A stretch of 64,000 bases of DNA from Verrucomicrobiota bacterium (GTDB lineage: Bacteria; Verrucomicrobiota; Verrucomicrobiia; Limisphaerales; J093): contig JAKLFY010000023.1 of the NCBI GenBank assembly GCA_022710935.1, positions 1-64,000 of the forward strand, in the 5' to 3' direction. The position numbers and the translations under genes are program-made. The stretch's first letter is position 1; each line of letters starts with the position of its first letter. The notes below the pieces were generated by a model. The model was not told where the DNA came from. It was given only the letters and a program-made list of their open reading frames with translations, and searched no databases. Shown here piece by piece: positions 28,561-32,699 of the stretch.

Positions 28561-29895
28561 ATGAAGAACAATCTCTGTCGTCCGAAATCGAGTCGGTTCC
28601 TGTCCTTTGCGGTTGTGCTTGGCGCGCTCGCGGCGGGCGCCTCGGCGCTGGCTGCGCCCCCTCCCGGTTTTACAGCCCTGTTCAACGGCCGCGACCTGTC
28701 GGGGTGGCGGGGCGGGGACACATTCGATCACCGCAAGCTGCTGGCGATGCCTGCCGACCAGCGGACGGCCCAGATCAGCAAGTGGACTGAGACGATGAAA
28801 GCCCACTGGCGGGCCGAGAACGGGGAGTTGATCAATGACGGACACGGAGCGTACGCCACCACCGAGAAGGACTACGGCGATTTTGAACTGCTCGTCGATT
28901 ACAAGACCGTGCCCAAGGCCGATTCGGGCGTCTATCTGCGCGGCGTGCCCCAGGTCCAGATTTGGGACTCGACCGAAGAGGCGAAGTTCAGCATCGGCGC
29001 CAACAAGGGATCGGGCGGGCTCTGGAATAACAGTCCGGGCGCCCCGGGCAAAGACCCGCTGGTTCTGGCGGACAAACCGTTCGGCGAATGGAATTCGCTG
29101 CGGATCATGATGGTGGGTTCGCGGGTCAGCGTCTGGCTGAACGACAAACTCGTGGTCGATCACGCCGTGATGGAGAATTACTACGATCGCAAGGTCTCCG
29201 TGCCGGCCCGAGGTCCCATCCAGCTCCAGACCCACGGAGGGGAAATCCGATGGCGGAACATCTACCTGCGCGAGATCGACGCCGCCGAGGCCAACCAGAT
29301 CCTGGCGCGCAAGGGCAACGACGGTTTCGAGACAGTCTTCAACGGGCGCGACTTCAGCGGCTGGGCCGGTGCTGTCGCGAATTACGAGGTCAAGGACGGC
29401 GCCATGGTCTGCAAACCGGGCAAGGGCGGAACGGTCTACACTGAGCAGCAGTACGGGGACTTCGCGGTGCGCCTCGAGTTCAAGCTCCCCAAGGGCGGCA
29501 ACAACGGCCTCGCCATCCGGTACCCGGCCGACGGGGACGCCGCGTACGCCGGCATGACCGAGATCCAGGTGCTCGACGACAATTACGAGCAGGCGACCGG
29601 CAGCACGATCGACGCGCGCCAGGCGCACGGATCGGTGTATGGGATGATCGCCGCCCAGCGCGGTTACCAGCGGCCGATCGGCGAATGGAATTTCCAGGAA
29701 GTCACGGTCCGGGGCTCGCGCGTGCGGGTCGAGCTCAATGGCTTCGTGATCCTGGACGGCGACGTGGCGACGGTGAAGGAGTTCATGGGCAACACGCCGC
29801 ATCCGGGCAAGGATCGCACCAAGGGGCACTTCGGCTTCGCCGGCCACAACGACCCCGTCTGCTTCCGCAACGTGCAGTTGAAACGGCTCGACTGA
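28561..29895 (+). CDS. Exported protein with two DUF1080 (3-keto-disaccharide hydrolase) domains
   Basis: A 444-residue protein with a signal peptide (start MKNNLCRPKSSRFLSFAVVL, cleavage near AAPPPGF). Two DUF1080 beta-sandwich domains lie in tandem. The first begins FTALFNGRDLSGWRGG and has WRAENGELIND and KADSGVYLRG; the second begins FETVFNGRDFSGWAG and has GNNGLAIRYPADGDAAY. Some DUF1080 proteins hydrolyse 3-keto-glycosides made by Gfo/Idh/MocA oxidoreductases, and two such oxidoreductases are encoded at the right end of this window. The start ATG follows the TIR element by 59 bases. Confidence 0.9.
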   Translation: MKNNLCRPKSSRFLSFAVVLGALAAGASALAAPPPGFTALFNGRDLSGWRGGDTFDHRKLLAMPADQRTAQISKWTETMKAHWRAENGELINDGHGAYATTEKDYGDFELLVDYKTVPKADSGVYLRGVPQVQIWDSTEEAKFSIGANKGSGGLWNNSPGAPGKDPLVLADKPFGEWNSLRIMMVGSRVSVWLNDKLVVDHAVMENYYDRKVSVPARGPIQLQTHGGEIRWRNIYLREIDAAEANQILARKGNDGFETVFNGRDFSGWAGAVANYEVKDGAMVCKPGKGGTVYTEQQYGDFAVRLEFKLPKGGNNGLAIRYPADGDAAYAGMTEIQVLDDNYEQATGSTIDARQAHGSVYGMIAAQRGYQRPIGEWNFQEVTVRGSRVRVELNGFVILDGDVATVKEFMGNTPHPGKDRTKGHFGFAGHNDPVCFRNVQLKRLD

Positions 29896-29918
29896 GGCGC
29901 GATTCGCCTCGACACGAT

Positions 29919-30521
29919 TCATTCCGGCCACTGTGTGCCCGCGGGGTGCGGGCCATCCAAGAGGCGCAGCTCCTCCTGCAAACGCTCGAGGGGCAGCCCC
30001 ACGACGTTCGAATAGGATCCAACAATCCCGGCCACCAGGTCGCTCCCGCGTTCCTGGATGGCATAGCCGCCCGCCTTGTCGAGCGGATTCACCGCGGCCA
30101 GGTAGGCCTCGATCTGAACCGCCGTCAACGGCAGAAACGTGACGTCCGTCGCCTCCGCGAAGAGGCGCTGCCCGCGCCCCCGCCCGTGCAGCAGGCAGAC
30201 GCCCGTGACCACCTGGTGCGTCCGGCCCGCCAACTCCCGCAGCATCCGAGCCGCCTCCCCAAGGTCCTTCGGCTTGCCATACAGACGCGGCCCAAGACTC
30301 ACCAGCGTGTCCGCCCCCAGCACCCGCCGCTCGGGGAATTGTCGGGCGACGGCGCGCGCCTTGCGAAATGCATTCAGCATGCTGAGTTCACGCGCCGTCA
30401 ACTCCTCCCGGTGCACCTCCGCGACGCGGGCGGGGCATACCGCGAAAGCGATCCGCAGCCCGCGCAGCAACTCCTCGCGGCGCGGCGACGCCGAGGCCAG
30501 GATCAGCGGGTCATGGTCCAT
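29919..30521 (-). CDS. maf: Maf-family nucleotide pyrophosphatase
   Basis: Cytosolic house-cleaning enzyme of 200 residues that hydrolyses non-canonical or modified nucleoside triphosphates such as dTTP/UTP-type substrates. The family signatures are complete: ILASASPRREELL, VLGADTLVSLGPRLYGKP, AARMLRELAGRTHQVVTG, and DKAGGYAIQERG near the C-terminus. It is convergent with the DUF1080 gene, with 23 bases between their ends. The exact nucleotide preference (Maf or YceF type) is not certain from sequence alone. Confidence 0.92.
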   Translation of the reverse strand: MDHDPLILASASPRREELLRGLRIAFAVCPARVAEVHREELTARELSMLNAFRKARAVARQFPERRVLGADTLVSLGPRLYGKPKDLGEAARMLRELAGRTHQVVTGVCLLHGRGRGQRLFAEATDVTFLPLTAVQIEAYLAAVNPLDKAGGYAIQERGSDLVAGIVGSYSNVVGLPLERLQEELRLLDGPHPAGTQWPE

Positions 30522-30536
30522 GTGAAGCGTTGACCC

Positions 30537-30705
30537 TCAACGGTGGAATGCGCACGGAGACCATGAACCGGTCTGTAGCCGCCGACGTGAGTCGGCGCTG
30601 ATTCCTGTCTTCGGCGGAGCGAGATGGCGCGGACTCACGTCCGCGGCTACGGTCCATGGGAGAGGTGCCTTCAACGGTGGAATGCGCACGGAGACCATGA
30701 ACCGG
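30537..30705. repeat. Hairpin-pair element flanked by a 35-bp direct repeat
   Basis: An identical 35-bp sequence (TCAACGGTGGAATGCGCACG and on) occurs at 30537-30571 and 30671-30705. Between them lies a 24-bp inverted repeat, 30574-30597 and 30627-30650, with two mismatches. Each arm also folds on itself: GCCGAC gtga GTCGGC on the left and GCGGAC tcac GTCCGC on the right. The rest of the 30522-30875 gap shows nothing coding. Confidence 0.85.
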
Positions 30706-30875
30706 AGTCCCTCGCTCCCATCGTAATCGTAATCCTCTGTCGCCGATTGGATTCTGAATGGTCCCAGCATACGCGACAAAGACCCGTCACCCCGCCCCTC
30801 TGCCAATCCGATGGGATGGGGGCGGCCCGCTTTGCGGGACGGATGAGGGTGACGGTGCATCTAAAGTCCGGAAGA

Positions 30876-31940
30876 CTACGCAACTCTCCCGGCATCGGGT
30901 GTTCGGGATAGGTAATGGCATTCGGACATTTCCTGCAGTCGTTTGGCGGCCTGCTCGGGGGTGATGTCACGCTGGGCTTCGGCCAGCATCTCGTAGCCAA
31001 CCATGAACTTCTTGATGTGGGCCGATCGCAACAGCGGAGGATAGAAATGGGCGTGAAGCTGCCAAGGGGTCGCGTCGTCGTCGCCCCCGGGCGCGCCGTG
31101 CCATCCCATCGAGTAGGGAAACGATGTCTCGAAGAGATTGTCGTAGCGCGTCAGGAGACGCTTGAGAACACCCGCCAGATCCGCCCGCTCGCTCGCATCC
31201 AGTTCAGGCAGGCGCCGCACGTGGCGCCGCGGCACAAGAAGGGTCTCGTAGGGCCACAACGCCCAGAAAGGCACCACAGCCAGCCAATGGTCGGTCGAAA
31301 CAACAACGCGCTCGCCCCGCTGGCGTTCGCGCTCGGCATAATCGATGAGCAGCGGCGCACCCTGCGTCTGGTAATAGGCGCGCTGGGAAACGTCTTCGAG
31401 CCGCGCCTCGTTCGGCAGGCTCGACCCGGCCCAGACCTGGCCGTGGGGGTGCGGATTCGAGCAGCCCATCATGGCCCCCTTGTTCTCGAAGACCTGGACC
31501 CAACGGTAATCCCTCAGGAGCTCCGATGTCTGATCCGCCCACACATCCACCACCCGCTCGATGTCGGCCTGCTCCATCTCGGGCAGCGTCAAATCGTGGC
31601 GCGGAGAGAAGCAGATCACACGGCACGTCCCCCGGACGGATTCGACGCGCATCAGGGGATCATCGCCCGGCGTCTCCCCCGCCGGGGTCTCCGGGAGCAA
31701 CGCCGCAAAGTCGTTGGTGAACACGTATGTGTGGGTGTACTGAGGGTTGTGCGCGCCATTGGCCCGGGCGTTGCCGGGACAAAGGTGGCACTTGGACTCG
31801 AACCGCGGGCGCCGCTCGTCCGCCGTGTGCTCGCGATGCCCGTGCCAGGGACGCAGCGTTCGGTGCGGCGACACGAGCACCCATTGGCCGGTCAGCGGGT
31901 TGAGTCGTCGATGCGGATGGTGTTCCGATTGAAAAGTCAC
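30876..31940 (-). CDS. galT: Galactose-1-phosphate uridylyltransferase
   Basis: Cytosolic enzyme of 354 residues that swaps UMP between UDP-glucose and galactose-1-phosphate in the Leloir pathway. The active-site motif is [11 protein letters not shown] with the nucleophile His166 in HPH, and the zinc site includes Cys51 and Cys54 (CHLCPGN). [17 protein letters not shown] and [11 protein letters not shown] are also typical. The start at [16 protein letters not shown] fits the family length. No galK or galE is present nearby. It lies upstream of a repeat-filled gap and 48 bases downstream of the rsmI stop on the same strand, so the two could share a transcript. Confidence 0.93.
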
Positions 31941-31988
31941 AGCGGCGACTCTCCTAGAAGCTCCGCCGCAACAAGTAAAGTTTGAATT

Positions 31989-32699
31989 CTAGCCTGGCGC
32001 GATCAACACCACGAACTCACCGCGCAAGGAGCGCGCCTTGGCTTGCTCGATCAACTCGCCCGGCGTGCCACGCAGGAATTCCTCGAATTTCTTGGTCAGT
32101 TCCCGCGCCAATACAACCTGGCGCGCGGGGAAGACCTGGGCCAACTCGCCCAGCAACCGCGCGACGCGATAGGGCGATTCGTAGAGCACCAGCGTGCCGG
32201 GCACGCCGCTCAGACGCTCGAGTTCCTTCCGCCGCTGCCCGGACTTGTGCGGCAGAAAGCCGACGAAATGGAACTCGTCCGTCGGCAGTCCGCTGGCCGT
32301 CAGCGCCGCCACAAGGGCGCATGGGCCGGGCACAGGCTCGGCACGAAAACCCGCGTCCAGCACCGCCCGCACCACCCGCTCGCCGGGATCGCTGATGCCC
32401 GGACTCCCCGCGTCGGTGATCAGCGCCACCGTCCCGCCCTCACGCAGACGCCCGAGGATCTGTCCGCTGCGCCGCGCCTCATTGAACTGGAAACAGCTCA
32501 GCAGAGGTTTGCGAATCTGGAAGTGATGCAGCAATTGTCCCGAATGTCGCGTGTCCTCCGCCACCACGACGTCGCACTCGCGCAACACGCGCAAGGCGCG
32601 GCAGGTGATATCTTCGAGGTTGCCGATGGGCGTTGCGACCAAATAGAGCGTGCCAGGACGGAGGGAAGGCAGGGCAGTCGGTTCCATGCGCCCATTCAC
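31989..32699 (-). CDS. rsmI: 16S rRNA (cytidine-1402-2'-O)-methyltransferase
   Basis: A 236-residue SAM-dependent enzyme of the tetrapyrrole-methylase fold that modifies C1402 in the ribosomal P site together with RsmH. Signatures are GTLYLVATPIGNLEDITCRA, VVAEDTRHSGQLL, ALITDAGSPGISDPGERVV and LYESPYRVARLLGEL. The family's C-terminal ELTKKFEEFLRGTPGEL is also present; the length is slightly short because the last helical domain is missing, as is common. Start could be the ATG at 32699 or at 32687. No riboswitch or operon partner is evident upstream. Confidence 0.93.
   Translation of the reverse strand: MNGRMEPTALPSLRPGTLYLVATPIGNLEDITCRALRVLRECDVVVAEDTRHSGQLLHHFQIRKPLLSCFQFNEARRSGQILGRLREGGTVALITDAGSPGISDPGERVVRAVLDAGFRAEPVPGPCALVAALTASGLPTDEFHFVGFLPHKSGQRRKELERLSGVPGTLVLYESPYRVARLLGELAQVFPARQVVLARELTKKFEEFLRGTPGELIEQAKARSLRGEFVVLIAPG

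Follow-up and report, generated by a model that had tools for sequence, protein, structure and literature searches.

The hairpin pair between maf and galT

The window, by which we mean the whole 64,000-nucleotide stretch analysed from the Verrucomicrobiota bacterium assembly GCA_022710935.1 (contig JAKLFY010000023.1), contains a Maf-like protein gene (maf) and a gene for galactose-1-phosphate uridylyltransferase (galT), both on the minus strand, and between them lie two inverted hairpins accompanied by two copies of a leader sequence (Table 1). The junction of leader copy 1 overlaps the maf start codon (30519-30521). The pair is a REPIN, consisting of two GTAG-tagged REP hairpins placed head to head, and its family is represented in many genomes of the order.

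Table 1. Features of the maf-galT region in window coordinates
Feature	Position	Strand	Remarks
Maf-like protein gene (PF02545)	29919..30521	-	element at the start of the gene
Left leader of the composite unit, copy 1	30515..30571	+	junction GGTCCATGTGAAG, TTGACCC, 35-bp block 30537-30571
REP arm 1	30575..30598	+	GTAG tag and stem variant CCGAC/GTCGG
Inter-arm spacer	30599..30626	+	28 nt with 24-nt arms; 30 nt with 23-nt arms
REP arm 2	30627..30650	-	GTAG tag and stem variant CGGAC/GTCCG
Leader copy 2, shortened	30651..30705	+	starts GGTCCATGGGAGAG...; identical 35-bp block 30671-30705
Distinct module after leader copy 2	30706..30755	+	CGTAATCGTAATCC units; end placed by eye
Galactose-1-phosphate uridylyltransferase gene (PF01087, PF02744)	30876..31940	-	neighbour

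Arm 1 reads GTAGC-CGCCGAC-GTGA-GTCGGCG-C and arm 2, on the minus strand, GTAGC-CGCGGAC-GTGA-GTCCGCG-C; each forms a stem of 7 bp, when the closing C-G pair is included, around a GTGA loop. The claim of the earlier note that the two arms pair with each other save at two positions compensated within each arm was confirmed base for base. Both mismatches are the two halves of a single stem pair, which reads C-G in the first arm and G-C in the second, and the extended arms of 29 nt are 86% complementary. Folded as single-stranded DNA, each arm gave -9.3 kcal/mol (z -4.64 and -3.93) and the complete arm pair -28.8 kcal/mol (z -4.73); the leader strand was without structure (z +1.26). An Rfam search of 29500-32000 returned no family at the cut-off; the sole matches were miRNA models (E 0.02-0.95, 23-27 bits versus 79-80), which can be of the sort that a long hairpin yields.

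The identical 35-bp direct repeat previously noticed around the element was likewise borne out: 30537-30571 and 30671-30705 agree at 35/35 positions, and 37/38 over 30534-30571 and 30668-30705, with an offset of 134 bp. Both leaders open with GGTCCATG, so the 35-bp repeat is the conserved core of a tandem duplication that took in part of the unit.

Covariation within the arms

Allowing up to three mismatches, the arm pattern matched only two places in the window (mean 0.00 in 100 shuffles) and 106 places in the 7.5-Mb genome, against 1 for the reversed-pattern control, so the arm is not a chance sequence. The same pattern matched 62 of the 293 genomes of the order. The arms show the features of GTAG-type REPs, namely an unpaired GTAG beside a stem-loop of 20-40 bp in many dispersed copies per genome.

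For the analysis of covariation in the window's genome, we used a sample of 80 stretches, covering 100 of the 106 arm places together with 39 leader or related places. Arms were chosen by GTAGCCG and the loop GTNA, with the remaining stem bases left free on both sides; the patterns by which the loci were first located also covered the 3' side, and the sample is therefore not wholly unbiased. Across 84 arms from these stretches, 576 of 588 stem cells were paired, and the best of 2000 shuffles reached 525, so that the covariation to be expected from the earlier note was indeed present among the genomic copies. The relatives, among the matches listed, gave 1495 of 1589 paired cells (227 arms, 107 stretches; best shuffle 1363), with two-sided changes at further stem pairs. 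Counting each distinct sequence once, we obtained 128/140 cells for 20 sequences in the window's genome (best shuffle 122) and 329/392 cells for 56 sequences in the relatives (best shuffle 306; among the matches listed). Three stem variants dominate in the window's genome: CCGAC (34), CGGAC (23) and CCGTC (23). The covariation points to selection on the hairpin, as the earlier note had read it, but the variants may instead represent a few inherited subfamilies or founder events, which the counts fit as well as they fit many independent changes.

Several arms in the window's genome (L212, L220, L260 and others) are variants with a longer inner hairpin in place of one stem side (GTAGCCGTCCCGCATCGCGGGATGAGTC). 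The arm is also present on contigs titled Euryarchaeota archaeon (L136, JAJRBK010000244.1) and Akkermansia muciniphila (L188, CAMCWI010000308.1), and it is possible that these contigs are misbinned or mislabelled. The text of the papers searched contained none of the arm sequences, and no title on the arm family appeared in literature listings for REP, RAYT and Verrucomicrobia.

Head-to-head pairs with unlike stems

In the window's genome we found 29 head-to-head pairs, 23 of which have an arm-start spacing of 53 bp, and the spacer sequence is similar across most of them. In G071, the only other genome in our two-genome sample of the genus, the spacing was 53 in 11/11 pairs. The pairs are thus two inverted REPs at conserved spacing, as in a REPIN. 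All 24 intact pairs of the window's genome combine unlike stems (16.4 expected; 0/5000 shuffles as high), some of these pairs being tandem neighbours and hence non-independent. Unlike stems were likewise found in 11/11 pairs at the G071 loci (5.8 expected; 16/5000 shuffles as high). Among the matches listed for the relatives, the excess of heterodimers was not significant (53/74 versus 48.6 expected, 681/5000), and pairs of CCGAC with CCGAC are common there. For several GTAG families, PMC3733652 describes heterodimers that have no obvious explanation.

RAYT transposases in relatives of the order

In three relatives, a protein of ~205-210 residues that resembles REP-associated tyrosine transposases (RAYTs) is encoded next to such hairpins, which flank the gene on both sides in L117 and L130 and follow it in L168, where the contig starts within the gene. 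The sole PDB match of the protein was E. coli TnpA-REP (4er8, E 6.2e-7). The alignment contains an HUH motif (PDHIH versus PEHMH) and the tyrosine of YVLLNP (versus YIYINP), which we take to be the catalytic residues. The best NCBIfam model was REP_Tyr_transpos (NF047646) at 50.5-54.8 bits, below its cut-off of 80, and PF01797 (Y1_Tnp) gave 14.6-18.1 bits, below 23; the protein thus scores under the curated models for a RAYT.

A profile built from the three proteins (A1), with the best 10 or fewer candidates scored per genome, matched at least 68 of the 293 genomes of the order. With the same scoring, a match was found in 15 of the 26 genomes with at least 10 arm matches, a group tallied by hand, and in 53 of the 267 others (Fisher p 7e-5, kinship ignored). 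The remaining 11 of the 26 REP-rich genomes, the window's genome and G071 among them, had no match to the profile among the best 10 or fewer candidates per genome.

We compared the best-scoring 30 RAYT loci. Seven of them (L291-L297) carry at least four GTAGCCGC 8-mers within 600 bp, with hairpins on both sides of the gene in five and on the single visible side in two, where contigs end; L295 also has one GTAGCAGC. Two of the seven (G177, G139) are the query's own contigs, which leaves five independent loci. GTAGCAGC occurs at 14 loci, of which L302 also has one GTAGCCGC, and a perfect hairpin follows this tag at 6 of the 14. Neither tag is present at the other nine, including L298 with its GTAGTCGC hairpin. 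A tree of the 30 proteins separated the two tag groups at 100/100. One RAYT clade therefore adjoins the same hairpins as those of the window in relatives of the order, and its sister clade adjoins a different tag. As a separate observation, the RAYT locus L319 (G188) stands next to a long array in which hairpins of two kinds alternate, GTAGCATCAAGC.. and GTAGCAGCGGGC...

The window's genome itself gave 12 Y1_Tnp matches. No convincing arm lay within 1.5 kb on either side of these 12 genes, the closest having 2 mismatches at fixed positions (L047) and the rest 3. No A1-type RAYT was detected in this assembly (95.7% complete) with one query protein and all 15 candidates scored; the best RAYT match is distant (26% identity, E 4.4e-6). 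G071 likewise yielded no A1-profile RAYT among the best 10 of 27 candidates. The proposal of a REP-like element with a Y1 transposase is thus upheld by the GTAG tag, the head-to-head pairs and the RAYT of the relatives, but not by a transposase in either genome of the genus. At L048:1270-2530 (G000:C180, in the window's genome), a gene for a 353-aa Y1-type transposase lies within inverted repeats, read by eye as GGTCGCATCTA..AGTTGACAA; immediately upstream of the gene, a AATTCATGAAG..CTTCATGAATT palindrome encloses a pair of GGAG-tagged hairpins, and a similar hairpin pair lies behind some of the composite leaders described below.

The leader and the composite unit

The 35-bp flank in its consensus form has 36 matches at three or fewer mismatches in the window's genome and 19 in G071, and the window's own form has 9, including the two window copies. 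Among 19 other genomes of the family and order tried, G071 was the sole match, the leader being absent from the other 18. Where it precedes a pair, the leader stops 5 bp ahead of arm 1, and it is mostly found on one side only; leaders on either side of an arm occur also at C185, C32 and C181, and at C194 with a diverged second leader. The hairpin pair sits in a composite unit of a leader of ~40 bp, the REPIN and a short right end, which occurs scattered as a single block in the window's genome and in G071. The earlier suggestion that the flank may have been copied along with the element is therefore supported, the flank being the leader part of this composite.

We sorted leaders found at seven or fewer mismatches by simple patterns in the next 150 bases. 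The 51 leaders of the window's genome are followed by a REP pair or remnant (33), TCAACG heptads (5), CGTAATC units (4), GGAG-tagged hairpins (2) or none of these (7), and the corresponding numbers for the 21 leaders of G071 are 11, 3, 1, 2 and 4. The window's second leader is followed by a CGTAATC module, and modules like that at 30706..30755 lie behind three other leaders in the same genome. The earlier note had named a flank repeated at high copy by itself as evidence against its reading, and this is in part what we observed: the flank travels with the pair, but it is also a repeat in its own right with its 36 matches and at times stands before other modules (18/51 copies).

Start codons as targets of insertion were not supported, as an open frame of at least 100 codons was present at 28/70 flanks without a control and at 20/51 against 39% with a crude control. 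At one site (L239, minus strand, leader at 699; G000:C112:27139), the leader's CCATGAACC seems to supply a lipoprotein-like gene (MNQTSTVSLVLAAALAVLCAGCSG) with its start codon, as translated by eye.

Signs of mobility of the composite in G071

Among the G071 loci analysed, a 133-bp unit of leader plus pair occurs ten times, each time on a different contig, with a mean identity of 97.9% and a minimum of 95.5%. The two 9-mers beside each unit follow the form CATGGNNAG, and left and right agree at 85/90 positions (shuffled mean 75.3; 1/20000 as high). Three units abut tandem neighbours; without them, the agreement was 58/63 (mean 52.4; 24/5040 pairings as high). Over 54 units of both species, G071 included, it was weak (128, mean 117.2; 137/5000). 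For the unit at L337, an empty site with both flanks and a single CATAGGAAG was found on contig C250 of the window's genome. In G071 this unit lies between CATGGAAAG (left) and CATGAAAAG (right), 9-mers that differ mutually at one base and also from the empty site. A partial case is L338, for which the right flank and a single TCATGGCAAG were found in the window's genome, with the further left flank ~5.6 kb off.

In G071, the gap between maf and galT has no pair but a single stretch resembling the leader, with 8 mismatches to the consensus, and because this stretch is kept, a gain of the pair in the window's genome and a loss in G071 both fit. At C112:22267 (L020, L238; L328), the two species have the leader and the flanks in common, but one holds a REP pair where the other has CGTAATC-type sequence; the modules differ between the species at C227 and C257 as well, less cleanly. 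The comparison of L326 with C194 was dropped because they are not the same site. A sample of 20 G071 contig stretches yielded a single orthologous case, one-sided and located where the contig ends; the other matches were to repeats and were short or of low identity.

IS200/IS605-type RAYT chemistry is expected to move elements without target duplication. That expectation, which applies to a REPIN, does not hold for the G071 composite with its similar 9-bp flanks and its one empty site matched by both flanks. Plain REP/IS200-type movement thus does not fit the recent copies, and the 9-bp flanking repeats together with the empty site suggest that the composite moves by other than REP/IS200 chemistry. 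REP pairs seem to have spread recently in one species without a detected cognate RAYT.

Discussion

We consider the following joint interpretation the most probable one, at roughly 0.85: the locus carries a GTAG REPIN with unlike stems, inside a dispersed composite whose leader was part-duplicated at maf and whose putative mover would be non-RAYT-like, producing a target duplication of ~9 bp. Extrapolating from published work on TnpA-REP, a RAYT would recognise each hairpin as single-stranded DNA through its GTAG tag and stem-loop. Under such recognition of single hairpins, each arm would keep its own stem and the pairing between the arms would be free to decay. The composite would be a non-autonomous element mobilised by a putative transposase with ~9 bp of target duplication, and the original RAYT may have been lost or may be absent from the assembly. 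With a unit in place at the maf start, a partial tandem duplication of its leader would have given rise to the 35-bp direct repeat.

A further and more tentative proposal is that the genus possesses a modular miniature element with a fixed leader and right end, which would duplicate ~9 bp of target at sites resembling CATGGNAAG and could exchange its middle cassette, the REPIN being captured cargo. The CGTAATC units, TCAACG heptads and GGAG-tagged hairpins are the other middle cassettes observed besides the REPIN.

Somewhat less probable still is that the whole unit is a conventional MITE belonging to a DDE transposon, with the REP hairpins as passengers and the covariation as founder history. 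The similar flanks of ~9 bp, the empty site and the lack of a detected A1-type RAYT in both genomes of the genus (for G071, among the best 10 of 27 candidates) would suit a MITE. However, no clear terminal inverted repeats were seen by eye at the ends of the unit, these hairpins are spread over the order and lie next to RAYTs in genomes that gave no match to the leader (18 genomes), and the covariation extends to further stem pairs in the relatives. We regard it as unlikely that the long inverted repeat is kept for an RNA role in a galT-maf transcript, as a terminator or a stabiliser of the mRNA. The position between two genes on the same strand and the strong hairpin, -28.8 kcal/mol as single-stranded DNA, would be compatible with such a role, but G071 lacks the pair at the maf-galT site, 29500-32000 matched no Rfam family at the cut-off, and the inter-arm mismatches in all 24 intact pairs weaken the long hairpin. 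That the 35-bp repeat is a target-site duplication from insertion of the hairpin pair, as an identical repeat enclosing the element might suggest, is highly improbable and is contradicted by the many other sites at which the repeat forms the unit's left part, mostly on one side only.

The preferred interpretation, a REPIN carried in a dispersed composite, has known relatives. O. terrae, a verrucomicrobium, also has GTAG repeats. The GTAG REP families of Di Nocera et al. (2013, PMC3733652) resemble the window family in the GTAG end tag, the short stem-loop, head-to-head pairs at distances mostly of 20-100 bp, conserved spacers, heterodimers, clusters with flanking DNA and repeat-specific REPtrons. 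The GTAG-17 pairs of O. terrae have spacers of 1-2 bp, unlike the window family, and the travelling of a leader with the pair sets the window family apart. REPINs, as described by Bertels and Rainey (2011, PMC3116915), likewise have two inverted REPs as the replicating unit and form tandem clusters of a 5' flank, the REPIN and a shorter flank. They differ from the present case, in which the dispersed unit includes a leader of ~40 bp and similar 9-bp repeats flank the recent copies. TnpA-REP (PMC8266576; structure 4er8) is comparable to the RAYT of the relatives in the aligned HxH and tyrosine motifs and in a gene adjoining GTAG-tagged hairpins. The relatives' clade is, in contrast, divergent and below curated cut-offs, and it was not found in the window's own assembled genome. 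REPINs and GTAG REPs are thus of a kind already known, and the composite carrier is the new part.

These results bring a verrucomicrobial order, where transposase clade and hairpin tag match cleanly, into the range of REP/RAYT co-evolution, and they provide a natural case in which REP pairs persist in genomes without a detected cognate RAYT. In the two species of this genus, it thereby becomes directly testable whether other elements can mobilise REP pairs as their cargo.
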